DNA of 64,000 bases from Pseudooceanicola algae (GTDB lineage: Bacteria; Pseudomonadota; Alphaproteobacteria; Rhodobacterales; Rhodobacteraceae), in assembly GCF_003590145.2 (NCBI RefSeq), contig NZ_CP060436.1, positions 2,919,001 through 2,983,000 of the forward strand, read 5' to 3'. Positions 1-21,261 of this stretch are shown one piece after another. Both the position numbers and the translations under genes were made by a program. Numbering within the stretch: position 1 is the stretch's first letter; each line of letters starts with the position of its first letter. The notes beneath the pieces were generated by a model, which worked only from the letters and a program-made list of their open reading frames with translations, searched no databases and was not told the origin of the DNA.

Positions 1-2
1 AC

Positions 3-110
3 ATGGTCTCGTTAATCATGGGCCTGAGGCCGATACTCTTGTTGATCCAGGGCGTAACACTGGCCCTTGTTCTGCTGTTTCTATGGACCCGGCCTAGCGG
101 ACCCCGCTAA
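3..110 (+). CDS. possible C-terminal end of a small hydrophobic protein
   Basis: An open frame enters from the left edge, or starts at an ATG at 3 or 18, and stops with TAA at 108-110. The readable peptide is very hydrophobic (runs such as PILLLIQGVTLALVLLFLW) and would make one membrane segment followed by a short basic tail. It converges on parB and overlaps its last 17 bases. It could be the tail of a longer gene outside the window or chance. A 6-bp hairpin (95-109) sits at the parB stop. Only the edge of the gene can be seen, so no function is proposed. Confidence 0.25.
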   Translation: MVSLIMGLRPILLLIQGVTLALVLLFLWTRPSGPR

Positions 111-993
111 GGATCTGACACAATTCGTCTAGATTTTCCAAGGACTTGTAACTAATCGTAAGACGACCAGCTTCCTGACCCGGCGAATGCTCGATCTCGA
201 CATTCATACCAATCGCCGCCGAAAGATCCGCTTCCAACGCACGGGTGTCCGCATCCTTGTCGCCCGTAGGCTGGGATCGTACACGGGGCGCCTTGGGGGC
301 CGAGTCCTGTTTTTTGAGCATCTGTTCGGTTGCCCGGACCGACAGACCTTCGGCAACGACCTTGCGCGCCATGCCCACAGGATCGTCTGAAGTAATCAGC
401 GCCCGCGCATGGCCGGCGGAAAGATCGCCATCCTGGACCATCCCACGCACTTCGTCCGGCAGTTGCAGAAGACGCATCAAGTTGGCGATATGGCTCCGGC
501 TCTTGCCCAACACCTGCGCCAAACGCTCCTGTGTATGACCGAATTTTTCCATCAATTGCCGAAAACCAGCCGCTTCTTCGATCGGATTGAGGTCGGCGCG
601 CTGAATATTCTCGATAATCGCGACTTCCAGGACCTCTGTGTCGTCGAAGTCGCGTACAATTACCGGCAATTCGTGAAGTTGCGCCATCTGAGAGGCCCGC
701 CACCGGCGCTCCCCTGCCACAATTTCATAGGCTTCAGGATGTCCGCGTTTTGGACGCACAATCAAGGGTTGAATAACGCCCTTTTCGCGGATCGACGCGG
801 CCAGTTCTTCGAGCTGCGGCATCGTAAATGTGCGGCGTGGCTGGTCGGGATTGGGCGAAACGCTTTCGATCGGCACCATCATATCCGGCCGACGCGCGCC
901 TGAACCGCCCTTGGCCCCCTCTTCAGAGGACACATCAGCCATCAACGCCGAAAGACCGCGTCCAAGGCCGCGCGGCTTTTTCTTCTTGTCCAT
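94..993 (-). CDS. parB: chromosome partitioning protein ParB
   Basis: ParB is the CTP-dependent clamp that loads at parS, spreads on DNA and, with ParA, segregates newly replicated origins. From the start chosen here the protein has 299 residues. A basic N-terminal ParA-interaction peptide (RGLGRGLSALMAD) is followed by the CTP-binding GERRWR motif, the ENIQRADLNPIEEA box and a helix-turn-helix (QERLAQVLGKSRSHIANLM). The ATG at 993 is preferred because family members usually begin a few residues before RGLGRGL. An in-frame ATG at 1029 would add 12 residues and overlap parA by 20 bases. It lies directly downstream of parA as the last gene of an rsmG-parA-parB run, and two parS sites lie nearby (2382, 4281). 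Confidence 0.96.
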   Translation of the reverse strand: MDKKKKPRGLGRGLSALMADVSSEEGAKGGSGARRPDMMVPIESVSPNPDQPRRTFTMPQLEELAASIREKGVIQPLIVRPKRGHPEAYEIVAGERRWRASQMAQLHELPVIVRDFDDTEVLEVAIIENIQRADLNPIEEAAGFRQLMEKFGHTQERLAQVLGKSRSHIANLMRLLQLPDEVRGMVQDGDLSAGHARALITSDDPVGMARKVVAEGLSVRATEQMLKKQDSAPKAPRVRSQPTGDKDADTRALEADLSAAIGMNVEIEHSPGQEAGRLTISYKSLENLDELCQILSGVR

Positions 994-1009
994 CGGGGTA
1001 TCTTCGGTC

Positions 1010-1819
1010 TCAGGCAATTGCGGGCTCATTCTTTTTCAAAACCTCTTCTGCGAGGGCACGGTAGGCCATTGCCCCCTTCGATGTCGGGTCAAAATTCAGC
1101 ACCGGCATCGCAAAGGACGGCGCCTCGCTTACCCGGACGTTACGCGGCACGATGGTGTGGAAAACCATGTCACCAAGATAGTCCCGCGCGTCCTGCTCCA
1201 CCTGCTGACTTAGATTATTGCGCGTGTCGAACATCGTCAGCACGATTCCTTCAATGCGCAGCTTGTCGTTGGCCGTCTGACGGACCTCTCGGATGGTCAT
1301 CATCAGTTGAGACAACCCTTCCAACGCAAAAAATTCGCTCTGCAGAGGGACCAGAACAGAATGCGCCGCCACCATTGCGTTGACAGTCAACAAACTGAGG
1401 GAAGGAGGGCAGTCAATAAGTACGAAATCAAAGCCAAAATCAGCCATTTGCGGTGACCGCAACTTGTCCCGCAACATCTGGACACGGTTCCCATTGGAAA
1501 CAAGCTCAAGATCCGCCGAAGCAAGGTCGACATTGGCCGGCACTATGTGCAAATTTGAGATGGAAGTTGGCTGAATAACGTCGTCCAACTCGACGTCGTC
1601 GAGGATCAGATCATAGGTCGTAACTTTTCGGTCTTCATTCGCAATCCCCAGACCAGTTGAGGCATTTCCCTGTGGATCGAGATCGACCACGAGAACCTTA
1701 CGTCCCTGCTCTACCAATGCTGCGCCAAGATTGATCGCCGTCGTGGTCTTGCCCACCCCACCCTTCTGGTTGGCAACCGCAATGATCCGCGGCACTAGAC
1801 TGGAGTCTGGATTATACAC
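1010..1819 (-). CDS. parA: chromosome partitioning ATPase ParA (Soj-like)
   Basis: ParA is a Walker-type ATPase that binds DNA non-specifically as an ATP dimer and is released by ParB, moving origin regions apart. The 269-residue protein shows the deviant Walker A motif KGGVGKTT (about 19-26), the DLDPQGNAS motif (about 46-54) and a Walker B-like LIDCPPSLSLLTVNA. This is the usual chromosomal Soj length without an N-terminal HTH. Its start overlaps the end of rsmG by 8 bases, suggesting translational coupling; a GTG nine codons later would also fit. It is followed by parB. Confidence 0.96.
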   Translation of the reverse strand: MYNPDSSLVPRIIAVANQKGGVGKTTTAINLGAALVEQGRKVLVVDLDPQGNASTGLGIANEDRKVTTYDLILDDVELDDVIQPTSISNLHIVPANVDLASADLELVSNGNRVQMLRDKLRSPQMADFGFDFVLIDCPPSLSLLTVNAMVAAHSVLVPLQSEFFALEGLSQLMMTIREVRQTANDKLRIEGIVLTMFDTRNNLSQQVEQDARDYLGDMVFHTIVPRNVRVSEAPSFAMPVLNFDPTSKGAMAYRALAEEVLKKNEPAIA

Positions 1820-2423
1820 GGACGATTCCTTTGATTTTCAGGATCACGGCTTGTTCATCAGTTCTACTCGCCAAGCTCGTCCAGTTAAAGTGCCAATGGC
1901 GTTCTGCCTCTTCAACTTCCGCCTTCCAGCGGGCCCCCTTGGGGAAAACGGCCATCCCATCAGCAGAGAGATGCCGAGAGGCGAAATCGAGAAGCTCTGT
2001 GAGGCTTGCGAGAGCCCGCGCAGTCAACACATCTGCACCCAAACTTGGTATTTCCTCAATTCTCTCGGCTAGAACTTGAATATCAAGGCCCGCTTCCCGC
2101 GCAACATTGCGGAGAAAAGCACATTTCCTTTGATCAGATTCGACAAGAGTGATCCGACCTTCAGGGTGGAACTCCGCACTGTAAATCGCCGCAACCAGAC
2201 CCGGAAACCCTCCTCCACTCCCAAGATCGGCCCAGTGGGAAAAATTGTTCGCCAATTTGAAAACCTGAACAGAATCAAGGATATGTCGATTCCAAAGATT
2301 TGGAATCGTGGATTTGGCAACCAGGTTTATCTTTGGATTCCACTTGGTTAGAAGATTGGCATAGATATCCAGTCTCTCGAGTGTTTCACGTGAAACACTC
2401 TGCGCAATGATCTCCCTACTCAT
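1812..2423 (-). CDS. rsmG: 16S rRNA (guanine527-N7)-methyltransferase RsmG
   Basis: RsmG (GidB) methylates N7 of G527 in 16S rRNA using SAM; loss gives low-level streptomycin resistance in other bacteria. The 203-residue product has the SAM-binding loop [11 protein letters not shown] (about 65-75), the [19 protein letters not shown] segment and TARALASL, all typical of the family. The start codon overlaps the mnmG stop by four bases. Codons 9-14 (reading VSRET) contain a perfect parS site, so the N-terminal peptide is partly dictated by ParB binding. Confidence 0.95.
2382..2397. promoter_or_regulatory. parS: parS site 1 (inside rsmG)
   Basis: A perfect 16-bp palindrome TGTTTCACGTGAAACA, identical to the broadly conserved bacterial parS consensus, lies within the 5' end of rsmG. 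ParB encoded at 94-993 is expected to load here. It is about 5.4 kb from the putative oriC. Confidence 0.93.
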
Positions 2424-4297
2424 GCAGACTTGCCCCGCCTTTCACGATTGAGGCGGGCAAGAATCAAAGCCAAAGCCGCTGGCGTCATGCCCTCAATTCG
2501 GCCCGCTTGAGCCAAGTTGGCTGGACGAACCCTGACAAGCTTGGATTTCAACTCGTTGGACAACCCATCCAATCCTTCATAGGCAAATTCGTCTGGAATA
2601 ACCCGATCTTCATCCTTACGAAGACTCTGTGCGTCCACCGCTTGGCGAGCAATATAAGTCGCATACAAGGCTTCCCGACCCAATTGCGTCTGAATGTCCT
2701 GCGGTACTTTTATGAGATCAGGCTCAACAGTTCCCAGGTCTTCAATGGAGACATTCGGAAACGCCAGAACCTCAAAGAGGTTTCGCATTTTACCATCCTC
2801 TCCCACCTTAATACCGCCCTCATTGAGCGTCTTCGGGGATACCGACCGAGATTTTAGCAACGTACGCCCCGCCTCCAGGGCTTCCAACTTGACCGAAAAT
2901 ACTTCAGCTCGGCGTTTTCCAACCAAACCCAGCTCGATCCCCTTGGGTGTTAGGCGTTGATCAGCATTGTCCGCACGCAAAGAAAGACGGTATTCCGCGC
3001 GAGAAGTAAACATACGGTACGGCTCCGATACCCCCCGCGTCGTCAGATCATCGACCATAACACCAATATAGCTGTCCGATCGGCTGAAAGTCACGGCGTC
3101 ACGACCCAACGAATGGTGTGCGGCGTTCAAACCAGCTACAAGACCTTGTGCCGCAGCTTCCTCATATCCCGTCGTTCCGTTGATCTGACCAGCCAGGAAA
3201 AGACCGGGAACATCGCGCAAAGAAAGTCGGGAATCCAGCGCCCGTGGGTCGACGTAATCGTATTCGATTGCGTATCCCATTTGGGTAATTTGGACATCCT
3301 CCAAACCCCGGATGGAGCGAACATAGGCTTCCTGAACCTCTGCAGGCAGAGATGTGGATATACCGTTCGGGTAGATGGTATGATCGTCCAGTCCCTCGGG
3401 TTCCAGAAACACCTGGTGCGAACTTTTGTCCGCAAAACGGACAACTTTATCTTCGATCGACGGACAGTATCGCGGGCCGACACCATCGATGTGACCACCA
3501 TACATGGCTGACCGAGACAGGTTTTCACGAATGATTTCATGAGTCTTCTCGTTGGTATGGGTCACACCGCAAGACACTTGACGAACAGCTAACCCACTGG
3601 AAAGAAATGAGAAAAACACTGGATCTTCGTCTCCTGGCTGAAGGTCCAGGGTTTTCCAATCAATTGTGCGACCGTCCAAGCGAGGCGGTGTTCCGGTCTT
3701 CAGCCGCCCGAGAGGAAGACCAAAATCATCCAATCGGTCACCTAGCCTATTCGCCGCAGAATCCCCCATTCGACCGCCCGAATAGTGTTGATCTCCGATA
3801 TGAATGATGCCCCGCAGGAAGGTCCCTGTTGTCAGTACGACGGAATTTGCGCGAATTTCGGCACCATCAGCAAGACGAACCCCAGCTACGCGGTTGCCGT
3901 CCATCAGGAAGTCCACGATTTCACCGACCAAGACCTCCAGTCCCGGACATGTCTGCATTTCGGAAAGCATTTCGCGACGGTAGATTGCTCGGTCAGCCTG
4001 AGCTCTCGGCCCCTGCACCGCTGGACCCTTTCGCCGGTTCAATAAGCGAAACTGGATACCTGCTTTATCTGCAACTCGACCCATAACGCCATCGAGGGCA
4101 TCGATTTCTCGTACAAGATGGCCCTTTCCCAATCCGCCGATGGCCGGATTACAAGACATCACCCCAATTCCGTCGAGCTTGAGCGTAATCAGTGCGGTTC
4201 GCGCGCCGACACGGGCTGATGCATGAGCTGCGTCACAGCCTGCATGCCCGCCCCCGACCACGATGACATCGAAATTTGTATGTTTCACGTGAAACAC
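2420..4297 (-). CDS. mnmG: tRNA uridine-34 5-carboxymethylaminomethyl modification enzyme MnmG
   Basis: MnmG (GidA) works with MnmE to install the cmnm5 group on the wobble uridine of several tRNAs, using FAD, NADH and a folate-derived carbon. The 625-residue product has the FAD-binding [10 protein letters not shown] motif (about 15-24), [13 protein letters not shown] and the [12 protein letters not shown] segment. The start is GTG at 4297, directly abutting a parS palindrome that supplies codons 1-6 (MFHVKH), a known coincidence at this locus. It is two bases downstream of mnmE and overlaps rsmG by four, so the genes form one transcription unit. Confidence 0.96.
4281..4296. promoter_or_regulatory. 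parS: parS site 2 (at the mnmG start)
   Basis: A second perfect TGTTTCACGTGAAACA palindrome, 1.9 kb from the first. It overlaps the GTG start codon and first codons of mnmG, with the mnmE stop a few bases upstream. ParB bound here would sit over the mnmG initiation region. Confidence 0.93.
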
Positions 4298-4299
4298 TC

Positions 4300-5583
4300 C
4301 TACTTCCCGATACAGAAACTGGAAAAGATCTCATCCAGAAGGGCTTCTACATCAACGATCCCGACCAGAGAGTCCAAAGCGCGGATTGCGGACCTCAATT
4401 CCTCGGCAATCAAATCCTCGCTATACATCGGGTCCTTCAACATATCACGAGCGTGGGACAAATCCACCAATGCCCTTTGAATGGCCGCTTGATGTCTGTG
4501 ACGCGTGGCGGTTCCAACAAGAGCAGTCCTTTTGCGGAAAGTCTCGGTCAGCGTCCCAATCAGTTCTGGAACACCTTGACCCGAGACGCCACTGATCCCT
4601 GATGTGTCACCCGTGACGTCGGCTTTTCCCGAGAGAGCCAGATCATCTTTCAGCAAGTCAAATACTGGTACTTCCCCCGGTTCAAGAAGGTAGATACGAA
4701 GATCTGCCTGCCTCGCACGTTCCCTCGCCCGCGAGATCCCGATGGCTTCAACCTCGTCATCGGTCTCTCGCAAGCCGGCGGTATCCAGCAAAGTCACCGG
4801 CAGCCCATTGAGATCCATGCGAACCTCGATCACGTCCCGCGTGGTTCCTGCGACAGAGGAAGTAATTGCTGCATCCCGACCGGCCAAGTAATTGAGAAGT
4901 GTGGATTTTCCTGCATTTGGGGCACCAAGGATCGCGACCTCGAAACCATGACGAACGCGTTCAGCGACCAAAGCCCCCCTGGCTTGAGACTCCAGGCCTT
5001 CTGCAAGCGAAACCAGTAGGGCATTTACCTCTGGCCGGACGTCGACTGGTACATCTTCATCGACAAAATCAATCACGGCTTCCAGCAAGGCCGCTGCACG
5101 GATCAGATCCCGCCGCCAGTCCTGCACCAGCGCCCCCAGTTTACCCGAGAAAACCCGTTGAGCCTGCCGCCGTTGCGCATCGGTTTCGGAATCGATCAGA
5201 TCTGCAAGCCCTTCGACCTGCGCGAGGTCCATCTTGCCGTTTTCCAAAGCACGCCGGGTGAACTCTCCTGCGTCGGCCATGCGTAATTCCGGAACCCCCC
5301 CAAGGAGTCGCATCACAGCAGAGACGATGGCGGGGCTTCCGTGGAGATGAAGCTCCACAACGTCTTCGCCGGTAAAGCTGTGCGGGCCCTCGAAGTAGAG
5401 CACCAAAGCTTGGTCAAGAACCGCCCCATCATCCTCCAGAAGGCGACGAAGCACGCCCTTGCGCGGCTCCGGACGGGCAACGCCAAAGGCCCCGAGTGCG
5501 GCAAGCGACGCGGGGCCCGAAATTCTGATGACGGAAACCCCTGCCCGGCCGGGGGCCGAGGCAAGGGCAAAGATCGTGTCCAT
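4300..5583 (-). CDS. mnmE: tRNA modification GTPase MnmE
   Basis: MnmE is the GTPase and folate-binding partner of MnmG in U34 modification. The 427-residue protein begins with the folate-binding TrmE N-domain ([20 protein letters not shown]), then a helical domain with an inserted G domain: G1 GAPNAGKST (220-228), G2 GTTRD (246-250), G3 DTAGLR (267-272). The invariant C-terminal CIGK, whose Cys is catalytic, is present. The expected G4 motif NKxD reads GKAD here, which is unusual. It lies 27 bases downstream of rho and two upstream of mnmG. Confidence 0.96.
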
Positions 5584-5610
5584 TGCAATTATCCTGGGGC
5601 GACGCCCCGA

Positions 5611-6894
5611 TCAGGTGTTCATGGAATCGAAGAAGTCCGAGTTTGTCTTGGTCTGCTTCAGCTTGGAAATCAGGAACTCGATCGCATCGGTGGTGCCCAT
5701 GGGGTTCAGGATCCGGCGCAATACGAAGGTTTTCTGCAGATCAACCTTGTCGACCAGAAGATCCTCTTTCCGGGTGCCGGACTTGAGAATGTCCATCGCC
5801 GGGTAAACGCGTTTGTCGGCAATCTTGCGATCCAGAACAATCTCGGAGTTACCCGTTCCCTTGAATTCTTCGAAGATGACTTCGTCCATCCGCGATCCGG
5901 TATCGATCAGCGCTGTGGCGATGATGGTCAACGAGCCACCTTCCTCGATATTCCGGGCAGCGCCGAAGAACCGTTTCGGACGTTGCAGAGCGTTCGCATC
6001 GACACCGCCGGTCAGGACCTTGCCGGACGATGGCACAACCGTGTTGAATGCCCTACCAAGTCTTGTGATCGAATCCAGAAGAATAACTACATCTCGTTTA
6101 TGTTCGACTAGGCGCTTGGCCTTTTCGATGACCATTTCCGACACGGCCACGTGGCGTGTTGCCGGCTCGTCGAAGGTCGATGAGATCACTTCACCCTTCA
6201 CCGACCGCTGCATGTCGGTCACCTCTTCAGGGCGTTCGTCGATCAGCAGGACGATCAGATAGATCTCCGGGTGATTTTTCTCGATCGAATTCGCGATATT
6301 TTGCAACAGAACGGTCTTACCGGTCCGCGGGGGCGCGACAATCAAGGACCGCTGCCCCTTCCCGATCGGCGCGACAAGATCGATGATCCGGGCGGAACGG
6401 TCGCGGATCGTCGGGTCTTCGACCTCCATCTTCAGGCGCTCGTCCGGGTATAGCGGCGTCAGGTTGTCGAAGGCGATCTTGTGACGGGCCTTTTCAGGCT
6501 CTTCAAAGTTGATCTGAGTAACCGAGGTCAGGGCAAAGTACCGCTCGTTCTCGTCCGGCGCCTTCATCAACCCTTCGACCGTGTCCCCGGTGCGCAGCGA
6601 CCATTGACGGATCATGTCGGGCGAAACGTAGATGTCATCGGGACCCGACAGGTAGTTCGCCTCGGGCGAGCGCAGGAAGCCGAAACCATCCTGCAGGACC
6701 TCCAGCACGCCGTCGCCACCGATCTGCCAGTCCTCATCCGCCAATTCACGGAGGATCTGGAACATCATCTCGCCCTTGCGCATGGTCGAGGCGTTCTCGA
6801 TCTCGAGCTCCTCTGCCATGGCGAGCAGATCCTTGGGGCTTTTTGCCTTGAGATCAGCAAGGTTCAGGGCGTTTTCGGTAACGATCTCGTTCAT
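5611..6894 (-). CDS. rho: transcription termination factor Rho
   Basis: Rho is the hexameric RNA helicase that ends transcription at untranslated RNA. The 427-residue product has an N-terminal Rho_N helical region, the RNA-binding cold-shock fold with RNP1-like DGFGFLRS (69-76), Walker A APPRTGKT (187-194), Walker [15 protein letters not shown] and the Q/R-loop region [13 protein letters not shown]. Length matches the family. It is the first gene of the rho-mnmE-mnmG-rsmG-parA-parB run and has its own predicted promoter about 100 bases upstream. Confidence 0.97.
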
Positions 6895-6987
6895 CTGGGA
6901 AAAGTATCCTCGGACCGGCCCGAAAAGGGCACTCGGTCAATCATCTGTATGGGAAACGGCGACGCCCGGACGGGCAGCTTGGCAAGC

Positions 6988-7016
6988 GATATAAGGCCGG
7001 CTGGGGCCGGAGTCAA
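6988..7016 (-). promoter_or_regulatory. predicted sigma-70 promoter of rho
   Basis: On the minus strand TTGACT (7011-7016) and TATATC (6988-6993) are separated by exactly 17 bases, close to the housekeeping consensus. Transcription would start near 6981, giving rho a leader of about 85 bases. The spacer is GC-rich and partly palindromic (CCGG repeated at both ends). In other bacteria rho controls itself through its leader; whether that holds here cannot be read from the sequence. Confidence 0.55.
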
Positions 7017-7068
7017 TCATTCCTGATCCCAGGCGATTCAAATCGGGCTCAGCGCGCTGCAGCCCCCG

Positions 7069-7515
7069 TCAGAACTTCACTACGACCGAAGCAACGATGA
7101 CGATCATCAGCAAGGTCGGAACTTCGTTCATCATCCGGTAACGCCTTCCTGGCAGGCTGTTTTCACCGCGTTCGAAGTCCTTTCGACGTTTGCCAAGCCA
7201 ATGATGAAACCAGGTCATGCCCAGAACAGCCGCTGCCTTCGTCCAGGGCCAGACCATGGACCAGGCAACAATCCCCGGCGTGAAGACAAGGCAAAGGCCG
7301 AAAATCCATGTCGCGATCATCGCCGGGTTCATGATCGCGCGCAAAAGCCGGTATTCCATCACCTTGAACAGGCTGTCGATCTCGGCGCTGGCGCCCTTTT
7401 CCGCGTGATAGACGAAGAGACGCGGAAGATAGAACAGGCCCGCCATCCAAGCGATCACCGAAACGATATGAAGCGTCTTGGTCCATGGATAGGCCAGAGC
7501 CAGGAAATCCTGCAT
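7069..7515 (-). CDS. hemJ: protoporphyrinogen IX oxidase HemJ
   Basis: HemJ is the membrane enzyme that oxidises protoporphyrinogen IX to protoporphyrin IX in heme and chlorophyll synthesis in many alphaproteobacteria and cyanobacteria. The 148-residue protein has about four membrane segments and the family features YPWTKTLHIVSVIAWMAGLF, with the conserved heme-ligand His in the first helix, and LPRLFVYH. The ATG at 7515 is chosen because it follows a good ribosome-binding site (AGGGAGAA); an upstream in-frame ATG at 7539 lacks one. It is transcribed away from the putative origin. hemE, often found beside it in relatives, is not here. Confidence 0.88.
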   Translation of the reverse strand: MQDFLALAYPWTKTLHIVSVIAWMAGLFYLPRLFVYHAEKGASAEIDSLFKVMEYRLLRAIMNPAMIATWIFGLCLVFTPGIVAWSMVWPWTKAAAVLGMTWFHHWLGKRRKDFERGENSLPGRRYRMMNEVPTLLMIVIVASVVVKF

Positions 7516-7540
7516 GTCGTTCTCCCTACGGTCCCACACC

Positions 7541-7949
7541 TCATAACAATCAATACAAATTAAAAGAAAGATTGTTGTTTGATGTAGTCCCTTTTCTTCC
7601 TGTGGATCAAAGACTCCTGCACAGAGTTATCCACAGGGGGAGGAATCATGGGATAACCCCTGTAGAGCCGTGGAAAGATTTCCAGGAAACTCTCAAAAAG
7701 GTATGAATACAGGGGTTTGTAGCGGGTCTTTCCTGTGGATATCCCGACCTCCGAAATGGGGATGAAACAAGGGATTTCCCTTGCATGACGGCTTTCCAAC
7801 TTATCCTTATCCACGCAGGACGGTTTGCCCCGGGCGTCGGAACAACAGGGTGAGTCGCACACAGCCCACCGGGACTCCTTGCGTCCAGCCCCTTTTTTTC
7901 CCAGAAGAAGCAGCACGCTATCTCTGAGTTCTGCACGAAGTTATCCACA
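7541..7949. other. oriC: putative chromosomal replication origin (oriC)
   Basis: This roughly 400-base gene-free stretch between hemJ and maf has two perfect DnaA boxes TTATCCACA (7627-7635 and 7941-7949) and three one-mismatch boxes: TGATCCACA (complement of 7601-7609), ATATCCACA (complement of 7734-7742) and TTATCCACG (7807-7815). A strikingly A+T-rich tract (about 7541-7585) at the hemJ side would suit an unwinding element. Flanking genes run away from it in both directions, parAB and two parS sites are within 6 kb, and the maf-aroE-coaE-dnaQ-secB order matches the oriC flank known in Caulobacter. The last DnaA box overlaps the maf start codon. Apparent reading frames across it lack support. 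Confidence 0.85.
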
Positions 7950-8548
7950 TGTCGCAAAAAATCATCCTGGCTTCCGGTTCTGCCATCCGGGCAGAGCTTT
8001 TGACCCGCGCCGATGTCCCGTACGAGGTCGTAAAGCCCCGTGTGGACGAGGAAATGGTGCGCGCCTCCCTTCTGGCCGAAGGCGAAAGCCCCCGAAACCT
8101 GGCCGATGCGCTGGCGCAGTTGAAATCCGAACGGGTGGGCATGAAACATCCCGACGCCCTGACCATCGGTTGCGATCAGGTGCTGGATTGCGAAGGTAAG
8201 GTGTTTTCGAAACCCGAAACGCCGGAACAGGCGCGGGATCAGATCTCTGCCCTGTCGGGCAAAGGCCATAGCCTACATACCGCCGCGGTGATCCACGAAG
8301 GCGGCCGCCCGGTCTGGCGCAAGTCGGCCGAGGTCAAGCTGACCATGCGCACACTTTCCGACAGCTATATCGGCAGCTATGTCACGCGGAACTGGCCGGC
8401 GATTTCCTGGTCTTGCGGCGCCTATCAGGTCGAAGCCGAAGGCAGCCGGTTGTTTTCCCGTATCGATGGCGACTACTTTGCCATACTTGGTCTGCCGCTG
8501 CTGGAAATTCTGGATTACCTGATCCTGAGAGGAGCCCTGGAGACATGA
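7949..8548 (+). CDS. maf: Maf-family nucleotide pyrophosphatase
   Basis: Maf proteins hydrolyse non-canonical or modified nucleoside triphosphates to monophosphates, keeping them out of RNA and DNA. The 199-residue product has the family start IILASGSAIRAELL, the catalytic Asp region TIGCDQVLD and the Lys of FSKPETPEQA. The substrate class (dTTP/UTP type or m7GTP type) is not clear from sequence. The ATG overlaps a DnaA box at the edge of oriC and only a weak ribosome-binding site (GAAG) is present. Its stop overlaps the aroE start. Confidence 0.92.
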   Translation: MSQKIILASGSAIRAELLTRADVPYEVVKPRVDEEMVRASLLAEGESPRNLADALAQLKSERVGMKHPDALTIGCDQVLDCEGKVFSKPETPEQARDQISALSGKGHSLHTAAVIHEGGRPVWRKSAEVKLTMRTLSDSYIGSYVTRNWPAISWSCGAYQVEAEGSRLFSRIDGDYFAILGLPLLEILDYLILRGALET

Positions 8549-9378
8549 GCCACGAGTCCATTCCCCTGGCGGGTGTCATCGGCTTTCCGATCATCCATTC
8601 CCGGTCGCCTCAACTGCATGGTCATTGGCTGAAAACACTTGGTCTGCGCGGGCATTACGTGCCGATGGAGGTCCATCCCGACAACCTTGCCGAAGCCTTG
8701 CAGGCGTTGCCGAAACTGGGCTTTGTCGGCGTCAATGTGACCATGCCCCATAAGGAAGCGGTGTTGGAACTGGCCAGCCATGTGACCGACCGCGCCAGCC
8801 TGATCGGGGCGGCGAATACCCTGATTTTCCGTGAAGACGGGACGTTTCATGCTGATAATACCGATGGTTACGGATTTATCGAAAACCTGCGTCAGAATGC
8901 GCCCGATTGGGATCCGCAGGTGGGTCCGGCGGCCATTCTGGGCGCCGGGGGCGCCGCGCGGGCCGTTGTAGTGTCGCTACTGGATGCTGGTGTTCCCGAA
9001 GTCATGATCTCCAATCGCACGCAGCTGCGGGCCGAGCGTCTTGCGCAGGATTTCGGCAACCGGGTGACAGCAGTGGATTGGGGGCATGCCAGTCGGATGA
9101 TCGGCGAAGCCGCGCTGGTGGTGAATACCACCTCTCTCGGGATGGCCGACAAGCCGGAACTGAAGGTCAACCTGGATGGGCTGCACGCCGGTCAGGTGGT
9201 AACGGACATTGTTTATAACCCACTGAAAACAAAACTTCTTGCGCGGGCCGAGGCGCAGGGCTGCGTGACCGTGGACGGCCTTGGCATGTTGTTGCACCAG
9301 GCAGTGCCGGGGTTCGAACGCTGGTTCGGCATCAAGCCCAAGGTCACCGAAGCCCTGCGCGACGCGACGCTGGGATGA
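8545..9378 (+). CDS. aroE: shikimate dehydrogenase
   Basis: AroE reduces 3-dehydroshikimate to shikimate with NADPH in aromatic amino acid synthesis. The 277-residue protein shows GFPIIHSRSPQLH (substrate serines), NVTMPHKEA with catalytic Lys70, ADNTDGYGF, the nucleotide-binding GAGGAARAV, NRT (NADP phosphate contact) and C-terminal GLGMLLHQAVPGFERWFG. The ATG at 8545 overlaps the maf stop (ATGA) and sits behind a GGAG-type site. It overlaps coaE by four bases, so maf-aroE-coaE-dnaQ are translationally linked. Confidence 0.96.
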   Translation: MSHESIPLAGVIGFPIIHSRSPQLHGHWLKTLGLRGHYVPMEVHPDNLAEALQALPKLGFVGVNVTMPHKEAVLELASHVTDRASLIGAANTLIFREDGTFHADNTDGYGFIENLRQNAPDWDPQVGPAAILGAGGAARAVVVSLLDAGVPEVMISNRTQLRAERLAQDFGNRVTAVDWGHASRMIGEAALVVNTTSLGMADKPELKVNLDGLHAGQVVTDIVYNPLKTKLLARAEAQGCVTVDGLGMLLHQAVPGFERWFGIKPKVTEALRDATLG

Positions 9379-20337: not shown

Positions 20338-21261
20338 ATGGATCAGACTCGCGAGATGCGTATCTACCTTGACCCCGTGCTTGCCCGAAGCGCCGGGGCC
20401 GGAGAGCATAATTTCCTGAACCTCGTCACCGGCGTTCTGCGCGAGGCGGATTTTCGCGTCGAGATCTGTGAAACCGGGCCCGAGGCCCGTGCGCTGGCGC
20501 CACGCAAGCCGGGCCATGCGCTGTTTCACATGGAACAACCGACCCACGACCGGGCGCTGGTGTTCCGGCGGGTTTATCACTATCCGTTCTGGGCCATCGA
20601 GCCCTATGCCGAGCGCTGGCAATGGCGGGTTGCACAGACCCCGTTTCCCGCGGCCGAGGTCAATCGCAACACGGCAAAGACGTTCTTTGATCGCTGGCAG
20701 ACCAAGCTGTTCGGCGCAGCGGCCAATGACACCAGCCGGGACGGTTTCGTATATGTCCCGCTACAAGGTCGCCTGCTGAACCACCGCAGTTTCCAAAGCT
20801 GCGCGCCGGTCGAAATGCTGGAACGGATCCTGGATGCCGACCCCGTACGCCGCATCCTGGTGACCCTGCACCCCAAGGAAACCTATAGTCCCGATGAACT
20901 GAGTGCGGTCGAAAAGCTGTCCCGGAAATACCCCCGCCTGTCCCTGACCAAGCGTCCGATGCAGGACTGCCTGCAACATTGCGATTATGTCGCTGCGGAA
21001 AATTCCTCGGTCGCGTTCTCGGGGTACTTCTTCCGCAAGCCGGCGCTTCTGTTTGCGCAGATCGACTTTCACCACATCGCGCTCGGCCCGGATGATTTCG
21101 ACCGCGTGGCGCACCACGCCCCGGACTACGAGGGCTATATCTGGTGGTTCTGGCAGAGGATGAGCATAAATGCAGGGCGTGAGGACGCGCCACAAAAGAT
21201 CGCAAATGCCCTGCGCCGCTGTGGTGTCCCCCTGTCGCGCTATGATGTCACGAAGCAGTGA
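20338..21261 (+). CDS. conserved hypothetical protein, possible capsule/glycan-transferase fold
   Basis: A 307-residue soluble protein without signal peptide or membrane segment. Its C-terminal part ([17 protein letters not shown], then [20 protein letters not shown]) resembles the donor-binding half of capsule-type (GT-B) glycosyltransferases, where an ENSSV-like loop contacts the nucleotide sugar. The N-terminal part ([24 protein letters not shown]) is not recognised. The ATG at 20338 lacks a clear ribosome-binding site; the next ATG is at 20356. It is divergent from hslV and converges on trxA. The function is only suggested by the fold resemblance. Confidence 0.7.

Follow-up and report, generated by a model that had tools for sequence, protein, structure and literature searches.

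Where does replication of the Pseudooceanicola algae chromosome begin, and how should a DnaA box that runs into the start codon of a neighboring gene be read? The first-pass annotation placed a putative chromosomal origin between the hemJ and maf genes. We analyzed this region within a window of 64,000 nucleotides (C1:2919001–2983000, where C1 is the 3,732,046-bp contig of a 4.09-Mb genome assembled in four contigs) and compared it with the corresponding loci of relatives. As we discuss below, the GC-skew minimum, the density of DnaA boxes, the nearby parS sites, and the conservation of boxes at the same junction in relatives support the assignment of the hemJ–maf intergenic region as oriC, in which we have high confidence, and the origin is almost certainly an ordinary one of a known family type.

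DnaA boxes and genes at the hemJ–maf junction

Five DnaA boxes lie in the intergenic region, all within positions 7601–7949; two are exact and three have one mismatch, in agreement with the first-pass count. In 1000 single-base shuffles of positions 7541–7957, none reached two exact or five one-mismatch boxes, and the shuffled means were 0.001 and 0.087, respectively. Genome-wide, 10 exact boxes occur in 4.09 Mb, two of them in this region at a distance of 314 bp, and one-mismatch boxes reach five per 420 bp here compared to two or fewer elsewhere in 44 segments (40 sampled 20-kb stretches and four parts of the window). The fourth box belongs to a tandem overlapping pair. Its loose pattern is shared by 20 of the 104 family loci, and its exact form, TTATCCTTATCC, recurs in three. 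The expected A+T-rich flank was also borne out, with 73% A+T at 7541–7591 as against 51% over 7541–7948; this purine-rich tract adjoins the boxes and, judging from its composition and place, is a candidate site of DNA opening.

Genes diverge from the region as predicted, with parB, parA, gidB, gidA, mnmE, rho, and hemJ on the minus strand to the left and maf, aroE, and coaE on the plus strand to the right. The start of hemJ is more likely the ATG at 7515, which lies behind AGGGAGA, than the upstream GTG of the open-reading-frame list, and the intergenic region would thus span 7516–7948. The parAB genes and two exact parS palindromes are close by, as the first reading had it; these palindromes lie about 3 and 5 kb from the origin, and the genome contains no others even when one mismatch is allowed. 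The palindrome TGTTTCACATGGAACA at 20522–20537 resembles parS, with two mismatches. In 2-kb windows, G+C content is 52–59% over positions 1–9000 (parAB to maf) and 60–70% in the remainder of the window.

The origin region contains four GANTC (CcrM) sites, to which we attach no meaning because their density across the family was 4.6 per kb, compared to 3.6 in shuffled sequences and 3.0 in maf. No Rfam match was found in 6800–8600, and the single terminator-like site was rejected as no more than chance gives.

Table 1. Features of the origin region and its surroundings, in window coordinates
Feature	Position	Strand	Remarks
parB	94–1029	-	
parA	1010–1819	-	
parS, exact 16-bp palindrome	2382–2397	.	
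parS, exact 16-bp palindrome	4281–4296	.	
rho	5611–6894	-	
hemJ (UPF0093, PF03653)	7069–7515	-	start in open-reading-frame list is GTG 7539
oriC (predicted), intergenic between hemJ (-) and maf (+)	7516–7948	.	DnaA box cluster, GC-skew minimum, junction conserved in family
A+T-rich, purine-rich flank, candidate DNA-unwinding element	7541–7591	.	73% A+T; relatives' tract at same place
Left module: GTAG (7584–7587), 13-bp spacer, DnaA box	7584–7609	.	pattern match; spacing conserved in relatives
DnaA box 1, TGATCCACA	7601–7609	-	1 mismatch
DnaA box 2, TTATCCACA	7627–7635	+	exact
DnaA box 3, ATATCCACA	7734–7742	-	1 mismatch
Overlapping DnaA box pair, TTATCCTTATCCACG	7801–7815	+	7801–7809 with 2 mismatches; 7807–7815 (TTATCCACG) with 1
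Degenerate box, TTCTGCACG	7929–7937	+	3 mismatches; place of relatives' second right-edge box
DnaA box 5, TTATCCACA	7941–7949	+	exact; last A is the A of the maf ATG
maf (Maf-like protein, PF02545)	7949–8548	+	

GC skew and the position of the origin

A change in the sign of GC skew had been named in advance as a test of the origin, and the result fits. We calculated skew for 40 stretches of 20 kb and for the window in four parts, which together make up ~23% of the chromosome (3.73 Mb). The interpolated cumulative curve had its minimum at ~2,934 kb and its maximum at ~1,031 kb, nearly opposite each other and close to half a chromosome apart, and the hemJ–maf region lies at 2,926.5–2,926.95 kb, a match to be read with a precision of tens of kb because the curve is interpolated from a 23% sample. 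A two-arc fit placed breakpoints at 2,937 and 1,110 kb and reduced the variance from 0.0531 to 0.0176, accounting for about two thirds of it. All 21 segments starting between 1.3 Mb and the hemJ–maf region had negative skew, and 21 of the 23 others had positive skew; inside the window, skew turns at 7–9 kb. The terminus lacks a second marker, since two dif patterns modeled on the E. coli site matched nowhere.

In many bacteria oriC adjoins dnaA, and in Caulobacter it adjoins hemE, the gene that also lies left of maf in 30 of 33 loci outside the family (L003–L035), but the idea that the hemJ–maf boxes are a DnaA titration or regulatory cluster and that the true origin is elsewhere, for example at dnaA (C1:2738582, 188 kb away) or hemE (C1:2504971, about 420 kb away), is rejected as very improbable, because skew changes sign at hemJ–maf, both genes lie inside the negative-skew arc with negative segments flanking 2.50 and 2.74 Mb, and neither the hemE locus (4.0 kb) nor the dnaA locus (3.5 kb) contains a one-mismatch DnaA box.

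Placement of the origin between hemJ and maf uses the same kinds of evidence as earlier work on the family. The origin of Rhodobacter sphaeroides chromosome 1 was located by cumulative GC skew, with parABS as a marker (PMC6315104, in the portion available), and 101 Rhodobacteraceae origins were called by DnaA boxes, the GC-disparity minimum, and proximity to parAB, according to the available part of PMC6699656. Some DoriC calls mismatch the true origin, and the strains tested include C. sphaeroides and Paracoccus (PMC13342612, available text).

A layout shared across the Rhodobacteraceae

Among 120 family genomes, 110 (that of P. algae included) gave maf loci, making 111 loci with the addition of Pseudooceanicola sp. 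HF7, the closest named relative among the matches listed (Maf 79% identical). We divided these into 104 loci, mostly one per genus, without PPSR (PF03618, the PPDK regulator) beside maf and seven with it, which were counted apart. Two of the remaining genomes (G016 and G040) were viewed separately, and eight without an orthologous maf match were examined through aroE. A further Maf-like gene at C1:1645489–1646028 is only distantly related, with 33% identity, and most family genomes also give two matches.

We examined 29 family loci together with flanks of 1.5 kb. Their gene order is rho-(hemJ)-intergenic-maf-aroE-coaE; hemJ was undetected in six and hemE in all 29, and the HF7 locus has this order too. 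Of the 104 PPSR-less loci, 81 show hemJ as the left neighbor and 21 show rho; the remaining two show neither, and one of them (L170) shows hemE. For 80 of the loci only ~800 bp upstream of maf was covered, so that hemJ, where it seems absent from these, may simply have been missed. We found hemE upstream of maf in G016 (L195) and upstream of aroE in G083 (L202). PF03618 has no match in the P. algae genome and is absent from 113 of the 120 sampled family genomes, which suggests an old loss. At least three one-mismatch boxes lie within 450 bp upstream of maf in 63 of the 104 loci, and three loci have none.

Thus, the first-pass statement that hemE and the PPDK regulator are missing from the flanks holds, and its description of a compact version is right in that neither gene is at the origin, but the compactness is no peculiarity of this chromosome: neighbor counts and the absence of PF03618 from 113 of 120 genomes show that most of the family shares it. 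In a Caulobacter-type arrangement, hemE-oriC-PPSR-maf, the surrounding rho-hemJ and maf-aroE-coaE genes are common to both. By contrast, hemE and PPSR do not flank the origin here, and the origin region contains no CtrA-type site within one mismatch of TTAA-N7-TTAAC, the motif used in the search. Outside the family, an open frame longer than 180 codons intervenes in 29 of the 30 hemE-maf loci, and the hemE-side intergenic regions of the 30 loci contain few boxes by the E. coli consensus, a count to which we attach no weight.

An origin next to maf is itself already published. It is described as conserved in Rhodobacteraceae on the basis of DoriC in a report on Ketogulonicigenium vulgare Hbe602 (PMC4793288), whose available text places the predicted origin directly upstream of maf. 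The P. algae boxes likewise lie directly upstream of maf at the rho/hemJ–maf junction, and we see no essential difference from that description.

The two proposed borders of the origin

The left border combines an A+T-rich tract with a spaced motif, which reads GTAG, 13 bp, TGTGGATCA in the window. In an alignment of 12 hand-picked origins, an A+T-rich purine tract is followed by a majority GGATGATGnnTTTTGTAGG and then, after a spacer, by a reverse box, in which every one of the 12 has GTGGAT. After anchoring on this box, which succeeded for 103 of the 104 PPSR-less loci and failed for one, GTAG was found within 60 bp of it in 49 (shuffled mean 22.6) and at 13–14 bp in 34. Within the genus, GTAG stands 12–14 bp from the box in 19 of 22 genomes, a set that includes P. 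algae and two genomes of 66% and 77% completeness and whose loci are not independent, as several are near-identical in the origin stretch. GATGATG occurs on this strand in 56 of the 104 loci, mostly at –365 to –305, and in reverse in two.

How might this module act? The basal unwinding system (PMC8287927 and PMC6669920, in the parts available) has in common with the window a DnaA box, a spacer of ~13 bp, and one 3'-GAT-5' at the expected place, but no run of at least three consecutive trios (NAN) occurs 0–16 bp from any box with up to two mismatches in this origin. Across the family, the trio pattern is found in 82 of 104 loci compared to 80, 81, and 70 in three shuffled controls. A canonical DnaA-trio element is therefore rejected. 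It is possible, if on balance doubtful, that the purine-rich A+T tract, GAT repeats, GTAG, 13-bp spacer, and box constitute a basal unwinding system of a divergent kind, with DnaA using some other motif in place of consecutive 3'-GAT-5' repeats. The recurrence of GTAG at a set distance in the family and the genus and the strand bias of GATGATG are consistent with such a system, as are the available passages of PMC8287927, in which 13 bp is the commonest spacer and deviant trios are suspected. Set against these observations, in addition to the trio counts, GTAG as such is only about twice as frequent as in shuffled sequences, the signal being its fixed distance, and within the genus only six of the 22 genomes have GATGATG, which the window lacks. 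We regard the left module as a candidate unwinding element of unproved type.

At the right border, a DnaA box does overlap the maf start codon, as the first-pass annotation reported. The start of maf is the only place in the genome where the 11-mer that joins box and ATG, TTATCCACATG, is found. In the 104 PPSR-less loci, a box with at most one mismatch occupies positions –8 to +1 of maf in 43 (18 exact and 25 one-mismatch), compared to a mean count of 0.47 over the other offsets from –330 to +199. The second commonest place is offset –20 (14 loci), and 34 loci have no box within two mismatches at either –8 or –20. In the genus, 19 of the 22 genomes have the box at the maf start (12 exact and seven one-mismatch), and the other three have a one-mismatch box at –9, –12, or –20. 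The start-codon box is most likely the right border box of the origin.

Two comparisons bear on whether this box belongs to the origin or to maf. First, none of the seven family loci with PPSR between the origin and maf has a box at the maf start, and each has two or three boxes in 801–861 bp across the PPSR start and the region upstream, with no common register. Second, boxes persist in some genomes without maf. Three boxes, one exact, lie upstream of aroE in L197 (G020), and four lie upstream of aroE in L199 (G100), where maf is reduced to two fragments. In L202, where aroE is the first gene at the origin junction in the absence of maf, five boxes lie between hemE and aroE, and an exact one covers aroE codons 2–5. 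The maf-less loci L196, L198, and L201 have one box each upstream of aroE, and L200 has none; the matches at L203 and L205 (G106) were to distant aroE-like genes alone and are uninformative. These comparisons, which are suggestive rather than clean, link the box to the origin rather than to maf.

The first-pass annotation also proposed that DnaA could affect the translation or transcription of maf. DnaA boxes are double-stranded DNA sites, and a direct effect on translation is therefore unlikely; an effect on transcription stands as a possibility. Sequences resembling Shine–Dalgarno 4-mers precede maf in 43 of the 104 loci (shuffled mean 16.6) and in 15 of the 43 loci with a start-codon box, counts too weak to tell how maf is translated.

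Maf is a member of a family of nucleotide pyrophosphatases that has been connected with septum inhibition. If the start-codon box were also a DnaA operator, DnaA loaded at the origin would stop RNA polymerase from starting toward maf or passing into it, and Maf would fall just before initiation and recover afterwards, with the origin assignment unaffected. We judge this unlikely. The retention of one register in the family and the genus, at the commonest box place of all, and the uniqueness of TTATCCACATG are what an operator would lead one to expect, but a fixed register can also be explained by the shared A and by descent, the near-identity of several genus loci reduces the weight of their agreement, the box seems to track the origin in the PPSR and maf-less comparisons, and no sigma-70-like promoter was found in 7400–8100. 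The reading as a border box of the origin, which asks for the fewest assumptions, is thus preferred.

The literature that we searched, with most subscription journals and DoriC outside its scope, contained no report of the start-codon box or the left module, and the available text of PMC4793288 says nothing of a start codon joined to a box. The literature match to the GAT-repeat letters was the oligonucleotide list of a paper. What is new here, as far as print was covered, is the conserved DnaA box fused to the maf ATG.

From the computed boxes, sampled skew minimum, parS sites, and conservation, we infer how the origin may work. DnaA-ATP would bind boxes from the one beside the A+T-rich flank to the one ending in the maf start and would open the purine tract beside hemJ, after which two forks would depart in opposite directions, one toward hemJ, rho, and parAB and the other toward maf, aroE, and coaE. 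ParB bound at the two parS sites would then segregate the new origins. In evolution, the loss of PPSR from the origin junction may have left maf as the first gene, with border box and start codon coming to share one A.

These results place the origin of the P. algae chromosome in the layout that is standard for its family, with PPSR absent and hemE elsewhere, and they give Rhodobacteraceae origins a testable anatomy, in which a module of constant spacing stands on the left and a border box runs into a start codon on the right. The latter makes a link between occupancy of the origin and expression of its first gene directly testable. A joint reading, in which DnaA assembly at the maf-start border box switches maf transcription in each cycle and the GAT repeats and GTAG-13-bp module open the other border, seems to us improbable; if true, it would mean that initiation is coupled to a nucleotide-pyrophosphatase or septation gene in the Rhodobacteraceae.
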